A DNA stretch of 64,000 nucleotides from Curvibacter delicatus NBRC 14919 (GTDB taxonomy: Bacteria; Pseudomonadota; Gammaproteobacteria; Burkholderiales; Burkholderiaceae_C). The stretch's first letter is position 1. The number at the start of each line of letters is the position of its first letter. The notes under the pieces are model-generated. The model was not told the origin of the DNA. It saw only the letters and a program-made list of their open reading frames with translations, and made no database searches. A program made the translations under genes and the position numbers. Below, one piece after another: positions 19,249-25,183 of the stretch. The stretch is taken from contig NZ_BCWP01000003.1 in assembly GCF_001592265.1 (NCBI RefSeq), positions 1-64,000 on the forward strand. Reading direction: 5' to 3'.

Positions 19249-19370
19249 TCCATGTGCAAGCGCGACAGCGTGATCGTTCCACATCGCATCACAGCAGGCA
19301 AAACCCGCCGCGCCAACCTTCGCTGAACAGCCCCGACCGGCGAGCGATCACCGCAACGCCGCTACCGGCT

Positions 19371-19706
19371 TCATAACCATGGGAGCAGCCGCGGAGCCGG
19401 CGTGCGTGCAATGGATGCGGCAATGGGCTGCGCCTTCTTGAGAAACTCATAGAAACCGCCAGCGCCGGCCGCCACGTCCTCCAGCTCGTCATCGGACAAC
19501 TGACTGGGCCGCACGGGAATGACCCAATGCGCCTGTGACGGGCTGTCTTCCAGCACCACCAGCTGCAGCCCCGTGGGTACGTTCAACCCCTCGGCCTTCA
19601 GCACCTTGGCAGGATCCGCGAGCAGTTGGGCCTTGTAGTTGGCATCCATCCAGCACTTGGCAATGATCTGGGACAAGACGGACTCCAGTGTCATCTCGCT
19701 CATCAT
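19371..19706 (-). CDS. NHLP-type RiPP precursor peptide 1 (last of eight)
   Basis: A 111-residue precursor. Residues 1 to about 82 are a nitrile-hydratase-alpha-like leader: the helix SQIIAKCWMDANYKAQLLADP, then GLNVPTGLQLVVLED and HWVIPVRPSQLSDDELEDVAAG. The leader ends AAGAGG instead of the plain AGG of its neighbours. The core is about 27 residues, FYEFLKKAQPIAAS and ending PRLLPWL. It carries the Cys-Trp found in all eight leaders. Tandem ATGs at 19706 and 19703 follow AAAGGA. It is 97 bases after precursor 2 and is the final gene of the array. The family is a leader for modified peptides (TIGR03793-type); the product is unknown. Confidence 0.9.
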   Translation of the reverse strand: MMSEMTLESVLSQIIAKCWMDANYKAQLLADPAKVLKAEGLNVPTGLQLVVLEDSPSQAHWVIPVRPSQLSDDELEDVAAGAGGFYEFLKKAQPIAASIARTPAPRLLPWL

Positions 19707-19803
19707 GTTCCTTTCGTCGTTGTCTATCCATACGAGCCAGTGTCATGTGAACGCCGCCTATCGAATGTCAGACAGCGCAACACATCAGCAGATCACAGCT
19801 GCT

Positions 19804-20145
19804 TTAGCGGAGGAAAAAGGGAAAACCAGGGACCGGGAAAGGGAAAGGTTGCTGCTGCGGCGGCAAAGCCCCCCGAAGCAACTGGTCGAATATTCCGCCT
19901 CCAGCCAGACCGTCCAGCATCTCGTCCGACAGCTCAGCCGGGCGCGCTGGAATGACCAGGTGCACGGTTTGCGCCGTGTCTTCTACGGCACGCAGCGCAA
20001 CACCCTGCGGCACGGGCAGCCCCTCGGCCTGGAGCACAGCAACTGGATCGGCCAGCAGGCGGGTCTTGAAAGCGGCATCCGTCCAGCAGCGGGCGATGAT
20101 ACGGCCCAGTGCCTGCTCATGTGCATTCTGATTTTTGGTCATCAT
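19804..20145 (-). CDS. NHLP-type RiPP precursor peptide 2
   Basis: A 113-residue precursor. The leader has LGRIIARCWTDAAFKTRLL, LPVPQGVALRAVEDTAQTVH and ends LDGLAGGG. The core, about 29 residues, is strikingly rich in Pro and Phe (PPQQQPFPFPVPGFPFF) and has no Cys, Ser or Thr, so lanthionine or azoline chemistry on it is not possible. The open frame runs to 20229, but AGAAGGAGAA stands before the double ATG at 20145/20142. It is 158 bases after precursor 3, the largest gap in the array, and that gap contains a 12-base element also found before precursor 8. Confidence 0.88.
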   Translation of the reverse strand: MMTKNQNAHEQALGRIIARCWTDAAFKTRLLADPVAVLQAEGLPVPQGVALRAVEDTAQTVHLVIPARPAELSDEMLDGLAGGGIFDQLLRGALPPQQQPFPFPVPGFPFFLR

Positions 20146-20242
20146 TTCTCCTTCTAAGTTGAGGTTGTCAGGTGGCAGCGGCTGGTCTTGCAACCTGCCA
20201 TCTGGGTCCAAGTCGCGCCCCCAGACCACCGGGTTTTCATTT

Positions 20243-20254
20243 CATGAGTAACCG
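20243..20254 (-). repeat. 12-base element shared with the region upstream of precursor 8 (copy 2)
   Basis: CGGTTACTCATG on the minus strand, 98 bases before the start of precursor 2, in the longest gap of the array. The same 12 bases stand at 22706-22717 before precursor 8. It could be a binding site or promoter part for a second transcript covering precursors 2 and 1. Confidence 0.35.
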
Positions 20255-20303
20255 CATGGCGCAGAAAGTTCTGCCCCTGCTGGCGCAACACCGGCGTACC
20301 GGC

Positions 20304-20642
20304 TCAGGCCTTCGGATGTGGGAAGTACTTGGCCATCCAGATGGCGGCCAGGTGATCTTTCATGACATCCCGGCCCGTGCCGGGTGCCGATGGCGCTGTG
20401 CCGGCGCCCACGACCTTATCCAGCATCTGGTCCGACAGGCCGGCTGGCCGTGCCGGGATCACCAGATGCATCACTTGGGTCGTGTTCTCCAACACGCGTA
20501 GCTGCACGCCCTCTGGCACCGACACGCCTGCAGCATGCAAGACGGTCACGGGGTCGGTCAGCAGCTTGGCCTTGTAGCTTGCATCAGACCAGCACCGGGC
20601 CATGATCTGGTCCATGGGCTGCGGCTGTTCATGTGAGGGCAT
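20304..20642 (-). CDS. NHLP-type RiPP precursor peptide 3
   Basis: A 112-residue precursor. The leader has MDQIMARCWSDASYKAKLLTDP, VPEGVQLRVLENTTQVMH and LSDQMLDKVVGAG. It lacks a plain Gly-Gly: the junction reads VVGAG. The core, about 31 residues, starts TAPSAPGTGRD and ends AKYFPHPKA. The start ATG follows GAGGAAACCTGA. It lies 56 bases after precursor 4. Confidence 0.88.
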   Translation of the reverse strand: MPSHEQPQPMDQIMARCWSDASYKAKLLTDPVTVLHAAGVSVPEGVQLRVLENTTQVMHLVIPARPAGLSDQMLDKVVGAGTAPSAPGTGRDVMKDHLAAIWMAKYFPHPKA

Positions 20643-20698
20643 TCAGGTTTCCTCAGACTTTCCAATGGACAAGGCCTGCCAAGAACTCGCGAAGCAGG

Positions 20699-21091
20699 CT
20701 ACGAAATGCGGCGCAGACTGGACAGCAACTGTGCATTCTGCTTTCGAACCTCTGCAGCCACCAGGTTTTCCAAGCGATCACGGATGGGAGGAAGGCCGGG
20801 AACACCGGGCGACGTCAAACTGGGCATGGCAGGGATGAGCCCCTCGAACTGCCCACCCGCGACGGCATCCAACGCTGCATCCGACAGCTCGCTCGGCCGG
20901 GTCGGGATGACCCAATGCATCAGTTCAGGACTGTCTTCAAGCACTCTGATTTGCAGACCTTCGGGCAAGTCAAACCCCTGCGCCGTGAGCACTGCCACCG
21001 GGTCGGCCAGCAACTGGGCTTTGAAGGCAGCATCGGTCCAGCACCGAGCCAAAATCTGATGCATTTTTTGATTCATGTTGTCCTGATCCAT
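20699..21091 (-). CDS. NHLP-type RiPP precursor peptide 4
   Basis: A 130-residue precursor. The leader has MHQILARCWTDAAFKAQLLADP, LPEGLQIRVLEDSPELMH and LSDAALDAVAGG. The core, about 50 residues, is one of the two longest: a Pro/Gly-rich front (QFEGLIPAMPSLTSPGVPG) and a helical amphipathic end (LENLVAAEVRKQNAQLLSSL). The open frame starts at 21178, but AAAGGACGCTTC precedes the ATG at 21091. It lies 26 bases after precursor 5. Confidence 0.88.
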   Translation of the reverse strand: MDQDNMNQKMHQILARCWTDAAFKAQLLADPVAVLTAQGFDLPEGLQIRVLEDSPELMHWVIPTRPSELSDAALDAVAGGQFEGLIPAMPSLTSPGVPGLPPIRDRLENLVAAEVRKQNAQLLSSLRRIS

Positions 21092-21117
21092 GAAGCGTCC
21101 TTTTAATGCAATGGGTG

Positions 21118-21471
21118 TTACAGATTCACCACCGGTTTGACCGGCTTCGCGATGTAGCGCTCCAGGAAACCGAGCCATCCGCTGGAGAGTTGCGGCGCCG
21201 TCACATCGGGCAGCAAGCTACCCAGACGCCCACCACCGGCCACCGCTTCCAAGGCATCATCTGACACCTCATTCGGACGGGCCGGGATGACCCAGTGCAC
21301 GACCTGATCAGTGTCTTCCACCACACGCACCTGCACACCGGCGGGCACTTCCAACCCTTGTGCGTTGAGAACGGCCACCGGGTCGGCCAGCAGTTGGACT
21401 TTGAAAGCTGCATCGGCCCAGCAGCGGGTCAGGATCTGGCTCATTTTTTGGTTTTGTGTCTCGATATTCAT
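21118..21471 (-). CDS. NHLP-type RiPP precursor peptide 5
   Basis: A 117-residue precursor. The leader has MSQILTRCWADAAFKVQLLADP, VPAGVQVRVVEDTDQVVH and VSDDALEAVAGGG. The core is about 36 residues, beginning RLGSLLPDVTAPQ and ending AKPVKPVVNL. The ATG at 21471 follows GCAGGAACC; a start at 21486 is less likely. The leader is nearly the same as that of precursor 4, while the cores differ, which suggests recent duplication followed by core change. Confidence 0.88.
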   Translation of the reverse strand: MNIETQNQKMSQILTRCWADAAFKVQLLADPVAVLNAQGLEVPAGVQVRVVEDTDQVVHWVIPARPNEVSDDALEAVAGGGRLGSLLPDVTAPQLSSGWLGFLERYIAKPVKPVVNL

Positions 21472-21526
21472 GGTTCCTGCCTTCAAAAGAATGCCTGTGC
21501 CTCACCCGACGCACCGGGCTACAGGG

Positions 21527-21820
21527 TCAGAGGCGCGGTTTGTGTTTGGTCGACGCCAGCAACTGATCACGCAAGCTTGCGCCACCGGCAGCGGCATCCA
21601 GCGCTTCGTCAGTCAACTCGGCCGGGCGGGCAGGGATGACCAGGTACGACAGCGCGGCGGAGTTTTCCAGTACACAGAGTTCCACGCCCTGCGGCATCGA
21701 CAGGCCCTCGGCCTTGAACACCTCGACCGGATCGGCCAACAGCTTGGTCTTGAACGCCGTGTCCGACCAGCACTTGGCAATGATCTGGTTCAACTTCTGA
21801 ATTTGTATTTCCTGCTTCAT
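21527..21820 (-). CDS. NHLP-type RiPP precursor peptide 6 (short core)
   Basis: A 97-residue precursor, the shortest of the eight. The leader has LNQIIAKCWSDTAFKTKLLADP, MPQGVELCVLENSAALSY and LTDEALDAAAGG. The conserved His before VIP is replaced by Tyr. The core is only about 17 residues (ASLRDQLLASTKHKPRL). There is a second leader Cys in VELCVLE. The start context (AAAAGAAAAGACG) is weaker than in its neighbours. It lies 46 bases after precursor 7. Confidence 0.87.
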   Translation of the reverse strand: MKQEIQIQKLNQIIAKCWSDTAFKTKLLADPVEVFKAEGLSMPQGVELCVLENSAALSYLVIPARPAELTDEALDAAAGGASLRDQLLASTKHKPRL

Positions 21821-21866
21821 CGTCTTTTCTTTTCAAAGGTTTTCAGGGTTCCCGGGATGCCGCGGT

Positions 21867-22226
21867 TCACCGCTGCCATGGGTATGGCATCCGATAGATG
21901 GGGTTCGCCAATTGCGCAGCCGAATCCCCCGTCTGTTTCACGTTGGTCTGTGCCACGCTGTCAACAATCTGCGCGTTCAGACGCTGCCCACCGGCCAACG
22001 CGTCCAGTTGCACATCAGACAAACCAGCAGGCGATATGGGAATCACCAAGTGCCGCACCTGCTCGGTGTCGGCCAGGACCTGCAACTGCAGCCCGCCCGG
22101 CACCTCGACGCCCAACGATTGCAGTGCCGCCACCGGGTCCGACATCAAACGCGCCTTGAATGAGGCATCGGACCAGCACTTGGCAATGATCTGGCCCAGT
22201 GTCTGTTCATGTGTGTCTTGCTGCAT
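21867..22226 (-). CDS. NHLP-type RiPP precursor peptide 7
   Basis: A 119-residue precursor. The leader has LGQIIAKCWSDASFKARLMSDP, VPGGLQLQVLADTEQVRH and LSDVQLDALAGG. The core, about 39 residues, is polar at first (QRLNAQIVDSVAQTNVKQT) and ends in an aromatic/Pro segment, PIYRMPYPWQR. The ATG at 22226 follows CAGGAAAACC; the open frame upstream to 22274 overlaps the previous gene and is not used. It lies 44 bases after precursor 8. Confidence 0.88.
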   Translation of the reverse strand: MQQDTHEQTLGQIIAKCWSDASFKARLMSDPVAALQSLGVEVPGGLQLQVLADTEQVRHLVIPISPAGLSDVQLDALAGGQRLNAQIVDSVAQTNVKQTGDSAAQLANPIYRMPYPWQR

Positions 22227-22270
22227 GGTTTTCCTGGTCTGGTTTCGGTATTGCGGGAAACGGATCTGCC

Positions 22271-22678
22271 TCAACGGGCATACACCTCATACGTCTCGGT
22301 CCAGTCGATCGCCGTCCGGTTAAAAGGATTGAAGGAGGTCCATACCACTGACGCCTGGTTGCGGGTCCCGACAGGCTTGGACGCAACCAGGAAATAAGAA
22401 CCCGACACGACTGGATGGGGGGAAACGGAAATCGTCATGCCACCAGCGACTTGATCGAGCTCGTCATCGGACAGATCCATCGGCCGGGCGGGAAGCACCC
22501 AGTGCACACACTGCGGCGTGTCTTCCACCACCTCGAGCCGCAGGCCGGCCGGCACCGCCAGGCCTTCGGCCTGCAGCACGGCCGCCGGGTCGGCCCGCAA
22601 TTTGGCCTTGAAAGCGGAATCAGACCAGCATTTGGCAATGATCTGGGCCATCTTCTGACTCTGGGCTTCCTGGTTCAT
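22271..22678 (-). CDS. NHLP-type RiPP precursor peptide 8 (first gene of the array)
   Basis: A 135-residue precursor. The leader has MAQIIAKCWSDSAFKAKLRADP, VPAGLRLEVVEDTPQCVH and LSDDELDQVAGG. The core is the longest, about 55 residues, rich in Ser, Thr, Val and aromatics (MTISVSPHPVVSGSYFLVA at its start, TYEVYAR at its end), unlike the helical or Pro-rich cores of the others. The ATG follows AAGGATGCTCT. As the first gene it should be nearest the operon promoter, which lies in 22679-22900; I could not fix its -35/-10. Confidence 0.9.
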   Translation of the reverse strand: MNQEAQSQKMAQIIAKCWSDSAFKAKLRADPAAVLQAEGLAVPAGLRLEVVEDTPQCVHWVLPARPMDLSDDELDQVAGGMTISVSPHPVVSGSYFLVASKPVGTRNQASVVWTSFNPFNRTAIDWTETYEVYAR

Positions 22679-22705
22679 AGAGCATCCTTCGCTTGACTGT
22701 TACCG

Positions 22706-22717
22706 CATGAGTAACCG
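22706..22717 (-). repeat. 12-base element upstream of precursor 8 (copy 1)
   Basis: CGGTTACTCATG on the minus strand, 28 bases before the precursor 8 start. It overlaps a small dyad GTTAC (22699-22703)/GTAAC (22711-22715). The identical 12-mer recurs at 20243-20254 before precursor 2. Confidence 0.35.
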
Positions 22718-22898
22718 ATCCGCGGGAAAAGTTCGCGCAGAGAAGCCTTGGGCCAGGACCGCCCCCAGACGCGCAATTGATATGCACACATTTGAACCAT
22801 TCGCCCAGACCCATGTTGCACACAGGTGCATCCAACGCCAGATGGCACCGCCGCAGTGCAGCAGGACCGCCCAAGTCGATGCGCGCCTGCACCAAAGG

Positions 22899-22914
22899 TG
22901 GCACGACGCTTGCA
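22899..22914 (+). promoter_or_regulatory. Sigma-54 promoter of the downstream chemoreceptor gene
   Basis: TGGCAC-GACGC-TTGCA: an exact match to the -24/-12 consensus TGGCAC-N5-TTGCW, about 92 bases before the chemoreceptor ATG at 23006. Transcription would start near 22926 and would need an activator ATPase of the NtrC/FleQ class. The rest of 22679-23005 holds the 5' side of the precursor array and no gene of its own. Confidence 0.8.
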
Positions 22915-23005
22915 TTTATCCAGACACAACAAACCGTCGTCAGCTGGCCCATGCACCGCATGTCGCGGCGCCTGCGGTCAGGCTACCAACCTGCTGGAAC
23001 CCTCC

Positions 23006-24982
23006 ATGTCACACATACAGCGCCTTCACCTTTCGCACAAGTTCCTGATCCTGGGTCTCCTGGCCCTGTTCATGGCGGCTATACCCACCACGCTGTACGT
23101 TCATGGCGTACTGGATGACATCGCCAAGACCCGGCGGGAAATCGATGGAACGGCACCGGTCATCGCTCTGCAGAAAGTGGTTCAGCTCATGCAACAGCAC
23201 CGAGGACTGTCGGCCGGCATGCTCAGCGGCAACGAAGCCCTGGCCGCACGCCGCCCCGGTTTGGCGGCTGCGCTGGCCAAAGCCATGCAGGCGGTGGACG
23301 CGCGCCTGACATCGCGCGGTGCCTCCGCGTCCACGACTGCGGCTTGGGGCGATCTCAAGAAGCGCTGGGCTGATCTGGAGCAGCTCGTTGCCAACCGGCA
23401 ACTTAAGACGGCAGAAAGCACCCAGCAGCACACCCGGCTGATTGCATCGTTGATGCTGCTCAGCGAAACCCTGCTGGACGACTACAACCTGGCCCAAGAC
23501 GCGGGGGAAGACACCAGTGCCTTGATCCAGGGCACGCTGGTGCATGTGCCCCACCTGGCCGAGAAACTGGGCGTCATGCGTGCGCAAGGCGCAGGCGTGC
23601 TGACTCAGGGCAACCTGTCCCCGGAAGGCCGTGCCACGCTGGTGGCGCTGCAGCAGCGCATCCACGAGCTGTATGGCGACACCACCCGCGCCCTGGACAA
23701 GGCCACCCGCATCAATTCTGGCCTGAAAACCGCCCTGGGTTCGCGTGTCGATGACATGAAGGCGCGCGTCGGCAAGACAATGGCACTCGCCGACAAGGAA
23801 CTCATTTCGGCCAGCCAACTGACGTTGCCCGCCCCGGCGTATTTCGACGAATTCACCCACACCATCGACAGTCTTTTCGAATTCAACGCGGTCGCCATGC
23901 AACAACTGGTGGATCAGTTGGAAACGCGCGCCGCTGCGGAACGTCAGGACATGGCTCTGACACTGGGCCTGCTGCTGTTCGGCATGGCCGCGGCCATTGC
24001 CCTGGCCACGGCGTTTGTACGCAGCATCACCCGGCCCATCGACGAAGCCATTGCCGTGGCCCGTTCCGTGGCGGAAGGCGACCTCGGCATGCCGGTGCAG
24101 GTGGTCGGCAACAACGAAATCGCGCAGCTGATGGCGGCGCTGCACAGCATGCAGCAAAGCCTGGTGCAAGTGGTCGCCACCGTCCGGCAAGGCTCGGAGT
24201 CGGTGGCCACCGCCAGCGCGGAAATCGCCCAGGGCAACCAGGACCTGAGCGCACGCACTGAAAGCCAGGCCAGCGCCCTGCAGCAAACCGCCGCCTCGAT
24301 GGAACAACTCAGCGCCACCGTGAAACACAACGCCGATAGCGCCCAACAGGCCAATCAGCTGGCACATGCGGCCAGCACCGTGGCCATGAAAGGCGGCGAG
24401 GTCGTGGCCCAGGTGGTCGGCACCATGAAAGGCATCAATGACTCGAGCCATCAGATCGCGGACATCATCAACGTGATCGACGGCATCGCTTTCCAGACCA
24501 ACATCCTGGCGCTGAATGCTGCGGTGGAAGCCGCCCGCGCCGGGGAGCAAGGCCGTGGTTTTGCCGTGGTGGCCAGCGAAGTCCGCTCATTGGCCAGCCG
24601 CAGCGCCGAGGCGGCCAAAGAGATCAAGAACCTCATCACCGCCAGCGTCAACCGGGTGGAGCAAGGCAGCACCCTGGTCGACCAGGCCGGCAACACCATG
24701 ACCGAGGTGGTCACCAGCATCCGCCGTGTGGCCGACATCATGGGAGAGATCAGTGCGGCCAGCGCCGAGCAAAGCGCCGGCATGGCGCAGGTGGACCAGG
24801 CCGTGTCGCAGATGGATCAGGCCACGCAGCAGAACGCCGCCCTGGTGGAAGAAAGCTCTGCCGCTGCGGCCAGCCTCAGGTCTCAGACCCAGGACCTGAT
24901 GCACGCAGTGAGTGTTTTCAAGTTCAATACCGGCGCCGTGCGCCTGCCCTCTCCCGCAAGGCATGCGGCACTCGCGCTTTGA
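23006..24982 (+). CDS. Methyl-accepting chemotaxis protein with NIT-like sensor domain
   Basis: A 658-residue chemoreceptor. Transmembrane helix 1 is at about 12-32. The periplasmic helical sensor (about 33-310) contains [15 protein letters not shown], like the QxxRGLSA signature of nitrate/nitrite-sensing (NIT) domains. Transmembrane helix 2 is at about 315-337, HAMP to about 390, and the signalling domain has the conserved tip [19 protein letters not shown]. No CheR-binding pentapeptide is seen at the C terminus. The frame is open from 22826, but the ATG at 23006 starts the transmembrane helix and lies downstream of the sigma-54 promoter. The ligand is unknown; nitrate or nitrite is only suggested by the motif. 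Confidence 0.92.
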
Positions 24983-25183
24983 AAGTACAAAAGCCACCAT
25001 CCGTCGGTTGCCAGCCCAAGTCCCCATCGGTGCCAAGCGCAAAACACGCGGCCGGTGGCGATGGAGGCTGGCGGATCGGATGATTCTGGAAGGAGATTCA
25101 ACAGGAACCATATTGCTTGATGTCATCAACAGACCGCCACGGACCAAGTCTCCCCGAGGTAAATGAGCGCCTTTTGTACCCCC

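Follow-up and report, generated by a model that had tools for sequence, protein, structure and literature searches.

Haft et al. 2010 (PMC2887384) described the nitrile-hydratase-like leader peptide (NHLP), its exporter, and arrays of its precursor genes, including large arrays of 12 genes in Pelotomaculum and 8 in Azospirillum B510. As outlined there, the NHLP/Nif11 and NHLM system comprises arrays of 8 to 12 precursors with hypervariable cores, an exporter trio matching TIGR03794, TIGR03796, and TIGR03797, and TOMM or LanM enzymes, with cores that contain Cys, Ser, or Thr. We analyzed a 64,000-nucleotide stretch of the Curvibacter delicatus NBRC 14919 genome (the window), which bears an array of eight NHLP precursor genes at positions 19371-22678. 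The leader family, the array size, the hypervariable cores, and the exporter trio are shared with the described system, but no YcaO or LanC protein was found, the cores are Cys-free, the exporter is unlinked, and an element of the extracytoplasmic function (ECF) type is present. The original prediction regarded an eight-member orphan library as unusual; large NHLP arrays as such are known, and the unusual features here are that the cores are free of Cys, the loci are dispersed, and ring-forming enzymes were not found. Judging from sequence, the array probably belongs to a dispersed regulon in which one ECF sigma factor and an NHLP/Nif11-leader export system yield cleaved, exported, Cys-free peptides, either acylated or unmodified. 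Of the three scattered substrate loci of that system, it would be the largest.

Two other described systems resemble parts of this one. As summarized in PMC9505594, the selidamide phaeornamide likewise pairs an NHLP-type precursor with a GNAT protein and peptidase-ABC export, but additionally involves a LanM, a peptide arginase, and a hydroxylase, whereas here a candidate GNAT is present in a single cassette, on contig C6. The microbisporicin regulator MibX, as outlined in PMC4973701, recognizes ECF promoters of the form GAACC-N15-GCTAC on a peptide antibiotic cluster, compared with GAAC-N15-GTTAC here. The MibX targets lie in one linked actinomycete lantibiotic cluster, in contrast to unlinked precursor loci in a betaproteobacterium.

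The array consists of eight intact open reading frames (ORFs) on the minus strand, with products of 97 to 135 residues. All eight scored above the TIGR03793 (NHLP leader) cut-off of 50.9 bits, at 76.5 to 84 bits, in the profile search that the original prediction had proposed for these proteins, and their identity as NHLP-leader precursors is thereby upheld. Precursor 1 (P0001; 22271..22678, 84 bits) has a Cys-free 55-residue core and is followed by precursor 2 (P0002; 21867..22226, 77.5 bits, 39-residue core), precursor 3 (P0003; 21527..21820, 82.1 bits, 17-residue core), precursor 4 (P0004; 21118..21471, 82.6 bits, 37-residue core), and precursor 5 (P0005; 20699..21091, 80.1 bits, 50-residue core). 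Precursor 6 (P0006; 20304..20642, 76.5 bits) has a core of about 32 residues, precursor 7 (P0007; 19804..20145, 77.1 bits) a Pro/Phe-rich core of 30 residues, and precursor 8 (P0008; 19371..19706, 76.6 bits) a core of about 31 residues. From precursor 1 to precursor 8, the intergenic gaps measure 44, 46, 55, 26, 56, 158, and 97 bases, matching the predicted range of 26 to 158, and purine-rich, Shine-Dalgarno-like stretches are visible by eye upstream of the ATG codons.

The leaders (the first ∼80 residues) can be aligned and contain 17 invariant columns, and the cores (the last 17 to 55 residues) cannot be aligned, in agreement with the predicted common leader and diverging cores of 17 to 55 residues. 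The leader ends in GG in six of the eight precursors, again as predicted for most of them; the exceptions are precursor 6 (VVGA) and precursor 8 (VAAG). A search of the whole 3.76-Mb genome found 10 TIGR03793 leaders above the cut-off, namely, the eight of the array and two on contig C6. Because the median dN/dS of these ten leaders is 0.345 (42 of 45 pairs; the other 3 were saturated), the sharing of the array leaders is more than chance. In the AlphaFold model of P0001 (mean pLDDT, 56.3), helices are found in the leader only and the core has values below 50.

The leader family raises the question of whether the ORFs encode small intracellular proteins that resemble the nitrile hydratase alpha chain and act whole rather than as precursors. 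All eight exceed the threshold of the Pfam family PF02979, and the profile finds nitrile hydratase chains in the PDB. However, these matches span roughly the leader only and reach 28 to 54 bits, compared with 249.85 for the nitrile hydratase equivalog, and the best PDB matches of the same profile are solved NHLP leaders (8tb1, 6e-28). Together with the hypervariable C-terminal parts and the co-occurring exporter, this makes such a role very improbable. Separately, the P0002 core (IVDSVAQTNVKQTGDSAAQL) shows a subthreshold likeness (17.8 bits; cut-off, 24 bits) to the start of RebB, the R-body "killing trait" family PF11747. A tblastn search of plasmid records with this core returned three records, none better than an E value of 0.7. 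A viral origin was also considered and rejected, no relatives being present among 19 pattern stretches from viral contigs.

Contig C28 of the same genome encodes an NHLP-specific exporter, with matches to TIGR03794 (369 bits; cut-off, 156), TIGR03796 (1103 bits; cut-off, 853), and TIGR03797 (912 bits; cut-off, 709). The genes are ordered as a TolC-like ORF, HlyD (TIGR03794), the C39-peptidase ABC protein (TIGR03796), and a second ABC protein (TIGR03797), followed by a Nif11-type ORF (18.1 bits; cut-off, 32.3) and a 76-residue double-glycine ORF with no family match. Next comes an ECF sigma gene and, divergent from it, the gene of a 1262-residue BTAD/AAA regulator (L117:2783-6571; G000 C28:26282-30070). 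The C39-ABC protein is 71% identical to that of G121, a genome of another genus in the family, whose exporter also exceeds the cut-offs (TIGR03796, 1116 bits; TIGR03797, 931 bits). The second C39 match in the Curvibacter genome, on contig C45, is a 320-residue ORF in which the ABC part is absent by eye. The exporter and the array are tied by co-occurrence in the present genome, the exporter being on another contig. The leader would deliver the precursors to this exporter, which, by homology, may cut after a G/A-G/A motif and release Cys-free, net-positive peptides of 14 to 55 residues. As reported in PMC6363468, LahT150, a C39 domain, cuts leaders of both the NHLP and Nif11 types and requires no more than their final 13 residues.

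The absence of processing genes from the window was borne out: none of the genome's C39, YcaO, LanC, or radical SAM matches lies on contig C3. The accompanying alternatives, enzymes acting from another locus or a different use of the leader peptides, can be narrowed: a dedicated exporter is encoded on contig C28, and YcaO and LanM/LanC were not found in the genome. No match to YcaO (PF02624) or to the LanC-like domain (PF05147) was obtained in the whole genome, and the YcaO profile was positive in 5 of 14 controls. Fifteen radical SAM proteins are encoded, 14 of which exceed the cut-off of named non-RiPP models (RiPP, ribosomally synthesized and posttranslationally modified peptide), i.e., MoaA, HemW, LipA, RimO, MiaB, HemN, BioB, RlmN, PRK14464, YgiQ, QueE, PA0069, AmmeMemo, and NrdG2. 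The original prediction also spoke of proteusin leaders; proteusins in the polytheonamide sense, with epimerized or methylated products, would call for a radical SAM epimerase or methyltransferase acting on the precursor, and the fifteenth protein matches none of the models above its cut-off.

The cores, in turn, lack cysteine entirely, with none in the 291 array-core residues and none in either C6 core. Given these core sequences and the missing enzymes, rings based on Cys can be excluded, as can Ser/Thr azolines given the missing YcaO. Among the cores of relatives, cut by an automatic motif rule that leaves some off by a few residues, 52 of 65 contain Cys. Of these 65, 33 come from near-identical Nitrospirillum arrays (L044, L045, and L047), and L049, L052, and L055 are mutually alike. 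The count leaves out L015 (E value); L016, L058-L060, L068, and one L067 ORF (no motif or a weak match); L062 and L063 (core wrongly cut); and the redundant loci L005, L010, L013, L014, L046, L051, L053, and L064. The exporter cluster of G121 includes YcaO, a ThcOx/nitroreductase protein, and a LanM (DUF4135 and LANC_like), and its NHLP core contains Cys. In the comparison of these two clusters, the absence of the enzymes and the absence of cysteine thus coincide. As a separate observation, the four NHLP-type proteins of L061, from a Planctomycetia metagenome-assembled genome (MAG), have two tandem leader-like halves ahead of the core.

The three loci share a bipartite, ECF-sigma-type promoter-like element, GAACYTT-N12-GTTACYCATG, with two copies in the array, one at each C6 gene, and three on C28 beside the ECF sigma gene, two of the latter being imperfect. 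The form GAACTTT-N12-GTTACYCATG lies upstream of precursors 1 and 7 and of each C6 gene, 27 to 97 bases from the start codon. In the window, both copies are on the minus strand, at 22706..22734 (27 bases upstream of the ATG of precursor 1; 35.3 bits) and 20243..20271 (97 bases upstream of the ATG of precursor 7; 33.2 bits). The string GGTTACYCATG has five matches genome-wide, every one on the NHLP system, compared with one for the reversed control. Across 250 genomes of the family, AACYTT-N12-GTTACYCA was found six times in the present genome, always on the NHLP system; three times in G121, always in the exporter cluster; once each in 11 other genomes; and in none of the remaining 237. The reversed control gave 12 matches in 11 genomes.

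A matrix built from four sites (the two in the window and the two on C6, which are therefore training sites) recovered seven held-out sites on C28 and in G121, scoring 21.7 to 30.7. On C28, these are located before a 66-residue ORF beside the sigma gene (30.7), at the Nif11-type ORF (22.5), and at the 76-residue ORF (22.8, with a spacer one base longer); in G121, they are at the start of an anti-sigma ORF (26.3), at a Nif11-type ORF (23.2), at a 579-residue ORF (22.5), and at a 70-residue double-glycine ORF (21.7). By comparison, 2 Mb of Markov sequence gave a best score of 20.4, and other loci, 806,013 bases in total, reached 20.3 once a score of 33.2, presumed to be the window copy in L089, was set aside. 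The ECF sigma gene adjoins the exporter in both genomes, and the two proteins share 42% identity across 170 residues. Two features of an ECF regulon are present, namely, the sigma gene itself and a common promoter-like element at unlinked loci. Neither was part of the original prediction. The C28 sigma factor probably reads GAACYTT-N12-GTTACYCATG and would activate the array as two transcripts (precursors 1-6 and 7-8), together with the two C6 precursors and the small C28 double-glycine ORFs. A search of an open-access library, which does not cover subscription papers, found no account of an NHLP regulon under ECF control, and the word "sigma" is absent from the available text of Haft et al. 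2010 (PMC2887384). In the available part of a methanobactin paper, ECF sigma and Nif11 occur in unrelated contexts.

The ORF that accompanies the sigma gene carries a leader-like segment in both genomes. In G121, a zinc-finger anti-sigma protein is fused to a Nif11-type leader (L124:3316-3900; G121 C1:440216-440800), with matches to zf-HC2 (24.5 bits; cut-off, 22.2) and to the TIGR03798 Nif11 leader (32.6 bits; cut-off, 32.3). Its ORF lies directly behind the ECF sigma gene and has the element at its own start. The C28 partner is the 66-residue ORF, which matches an anti-sigma model weakly (16 bits; cut-off, 225) and ends in the leader-like LNDADLEWLAAAG and a short tail. The two tails can be aligned at 45% over 20 residues (E value of 0.001 in a two-sequence comparison), and both have AA where the precursors mostly have GG.

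In flagella, the anti-sigma factor FlgM, the partner of FliA, controls the genes of a type III exporter and itself bears a signal for that exporter. By analogy, the locus might be an export-gated peptide library, in which the ECF sigma factor activates unlinked NHLP/Nif11 genes and its partner bears the leader-type motif of the cargo. The anti-sigma protein would then sense whether the exporter is free and let go of sigma only once export of the peptides is possible, as a leader-based counterpart of FlgM. In contrast to FlgM, the Nif11-type leader on the G121 zinc-finger protein is known from sequence only. The extended form of this idea adds that the system lost its ring-forming enzymes and cysteines, such that the NHLP leader would serve coregulated secretion rather than modification. 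No leader-like tail is visible by eye in two anti-sigma proteins encoded near NHLP genes in Shinella, and the G121 anti-sigma protein has no matching plasmid record; both points count against gating, which we regard as doubtful in its basic and extended forms alike.

The third locus, on contig C6, is a cassette of two NHLP precursors and a 344-residue GNAT-domain protein (PF00583). It is a clean 2.2-kb insertion (C6 45452-47667) relative to the sister genome G258, with a TpsB-type gene on one side and a dihydrolipoamide-dehydrogenase-like ORF on the other. The two leaders are recent duplicates (pN, 0.09; pS, 0.15), and their cores are nonetheless different. The GNAT protein is a candidate acyltransferase of the RiPP-associated type and the single maturase candidate found. 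Its homologs were found in nine plasmid records at 26 to 31% identity. Against AAC(6′) models, it scored far below the cut-offs (at best 36.4, compared with 320), and no resistance function is claimed.

The GNAT protein bears on whether all ten precursors are true RiPPs, with the C6 GNAT or an unrecognized enzyme acting on the array in trans to give selidamide-like lipopeptides. In five of the nine plasmid records, the homolog lies near Nif11/NHLP precursors or near double-glycine ORFs and C39 transporters: its neighbors are annotated as Nif11 or NHLP precursors in the Shinella, Ensifer p2, and Mesorhizobium records, whereas a double-glycine ORF lies nearby in A. oryzae (TIGR03793, 26.5 bits, below the cut-off), together with an annotated C39 protein, and in Ensifer p1, together with a C39-ABC protein. 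In the unannotated Microcoleus record, a C39-ABC ORF lies behind the homolog. By eye, the C6 cores, FPIWGFRMEPKKPR and FFPGMFRNFGPPGSKK, are similar to the core in A. oryzae, Lys is present in 9 of the genome's 10 cores, and phaeornamide offers a precedent for an NHLP precursor with a GNAT (PMC9505594, as summarized above). Yet the GNAT gene adjoins the C6 pair and is unlinked to the array, which has no GNAT of its own, and the core of precursor 7 is without Lys. In addition, three of the nine homologs (two Nostoc and Gloeothece) are fused within TIGR03032 proteins, with no such precursors annotated nearby. Modification of all ten precursors is possible but clearly less likely than the dispersed regulon, in which the C6 GNAT may attach acyl groups to Lys side chains, as happens in selidamides, either on the C6 cores or on the array in trans; otherwise, the peptides would exit unmodified. 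In two of the three Nostoc and Gloeothece records (L145, L146, and L151), a cadherin-like or Ig-like protein lies beside the GNAT/TIGR03032 protein.

Several observations weigh against the dispersed regulon as we propose it. The 11 other family genomes with a single element match are as many as those of the reversed control, and G083, an 85%-complete MAG with NHLP genes and YcaO, has no element match. The elements ahead of the C28 exporter operon (16.8, outside the top seven of the locus) and at the G121 NHLP gene (17.9) score within the null, and the elements at C6 and in the array may have been passed on together with their genes. Alignment of the C28 TolC-like ORF (L065:6486-7790) with its G121 counterpart begins no earlier than residue 121 of the latter. 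The remaining radical SAM protein, the B12-type L081, passes no model and reaches 64.6 bits against a RiPP C-methyltransferase model with a cut-off of 281.85, and the enzyme negatives cover YcaO, LanC, and radical SAM, with MNIO, peptide arginase, FkbM, and LanB not searched. Finally, six of the seven NHLP proteins of L057, a Saprospiraceae MAG, have Cys-free cores (several hydrophobic or amphipathic by eye); therefore, Cys-free arrays are not unique.

The system is sparsely distributed. Within the genus, leaders above the cut-off and TIGR03796 above the cut-off were each found in 1 of 26 genomes, both times the present one (15 of the 26 are ≥90% complete and ≤5% contaminated). Among the 250 family genomes, leaders above the cut-off occur in three: the present genome, G121, and G083, where a C39-like ORF fragment at a contig end adjoins a YcaO gene. 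By BLASTN, a 5.9-kb block of the window (19254..25181) is missing from the sister genomes G255 and G258, the closest of ten genomes compared (98 to 99% identity in the neighboring ETF-QO gene). Its flanks are 125 bases apart in G255 and enclose 1661 bases of other DNA in G258. The block also includes a plus-strand gene for a methyl-accepting chemotaxis protein (22913..24982; NIT, HAMP, and MCPsignal by Pfam), and the array and this gene were gained or lost together; no evidence supports membership of the chemotaxis gene in the peptide system. Gain is likelier than loss because no leader above the cut-off was found in the 25 other genomes of the genus.

Such an island-like distribution, and the failure to find ring-forming enzymes in the genome, would fit a decaying or silent remnant, i.e., an island that lost its ring-forming enzymes after acquisition and whose precursors are no longer produced or used. 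All eight ORFs are intact, however, and the leader dN/dS is below 1; the exporter and the element are retained, and the recent C6 duplication has new cores. We consider a remnant improbable. Under the dispersed regulon, the likely use would be in competition or signaling, through a mixture of secreted peptides.

The usual interpretation of an NHLP array is a library of substrates for one promiscuous modifying enzyme. Here, an array with conserved leaders and hypervariable cores has been kept in a genome in which no ring-forming enzymes were found, and the leader may therefore persist for export and coregulation. The G121 fusion of anti-sigma protein and leader makes export-coupled gene control directly testable. 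The shared element connects loci that cluster-based genome mining would label orphans and can be used to seek more precursors in genomes with this exporter.

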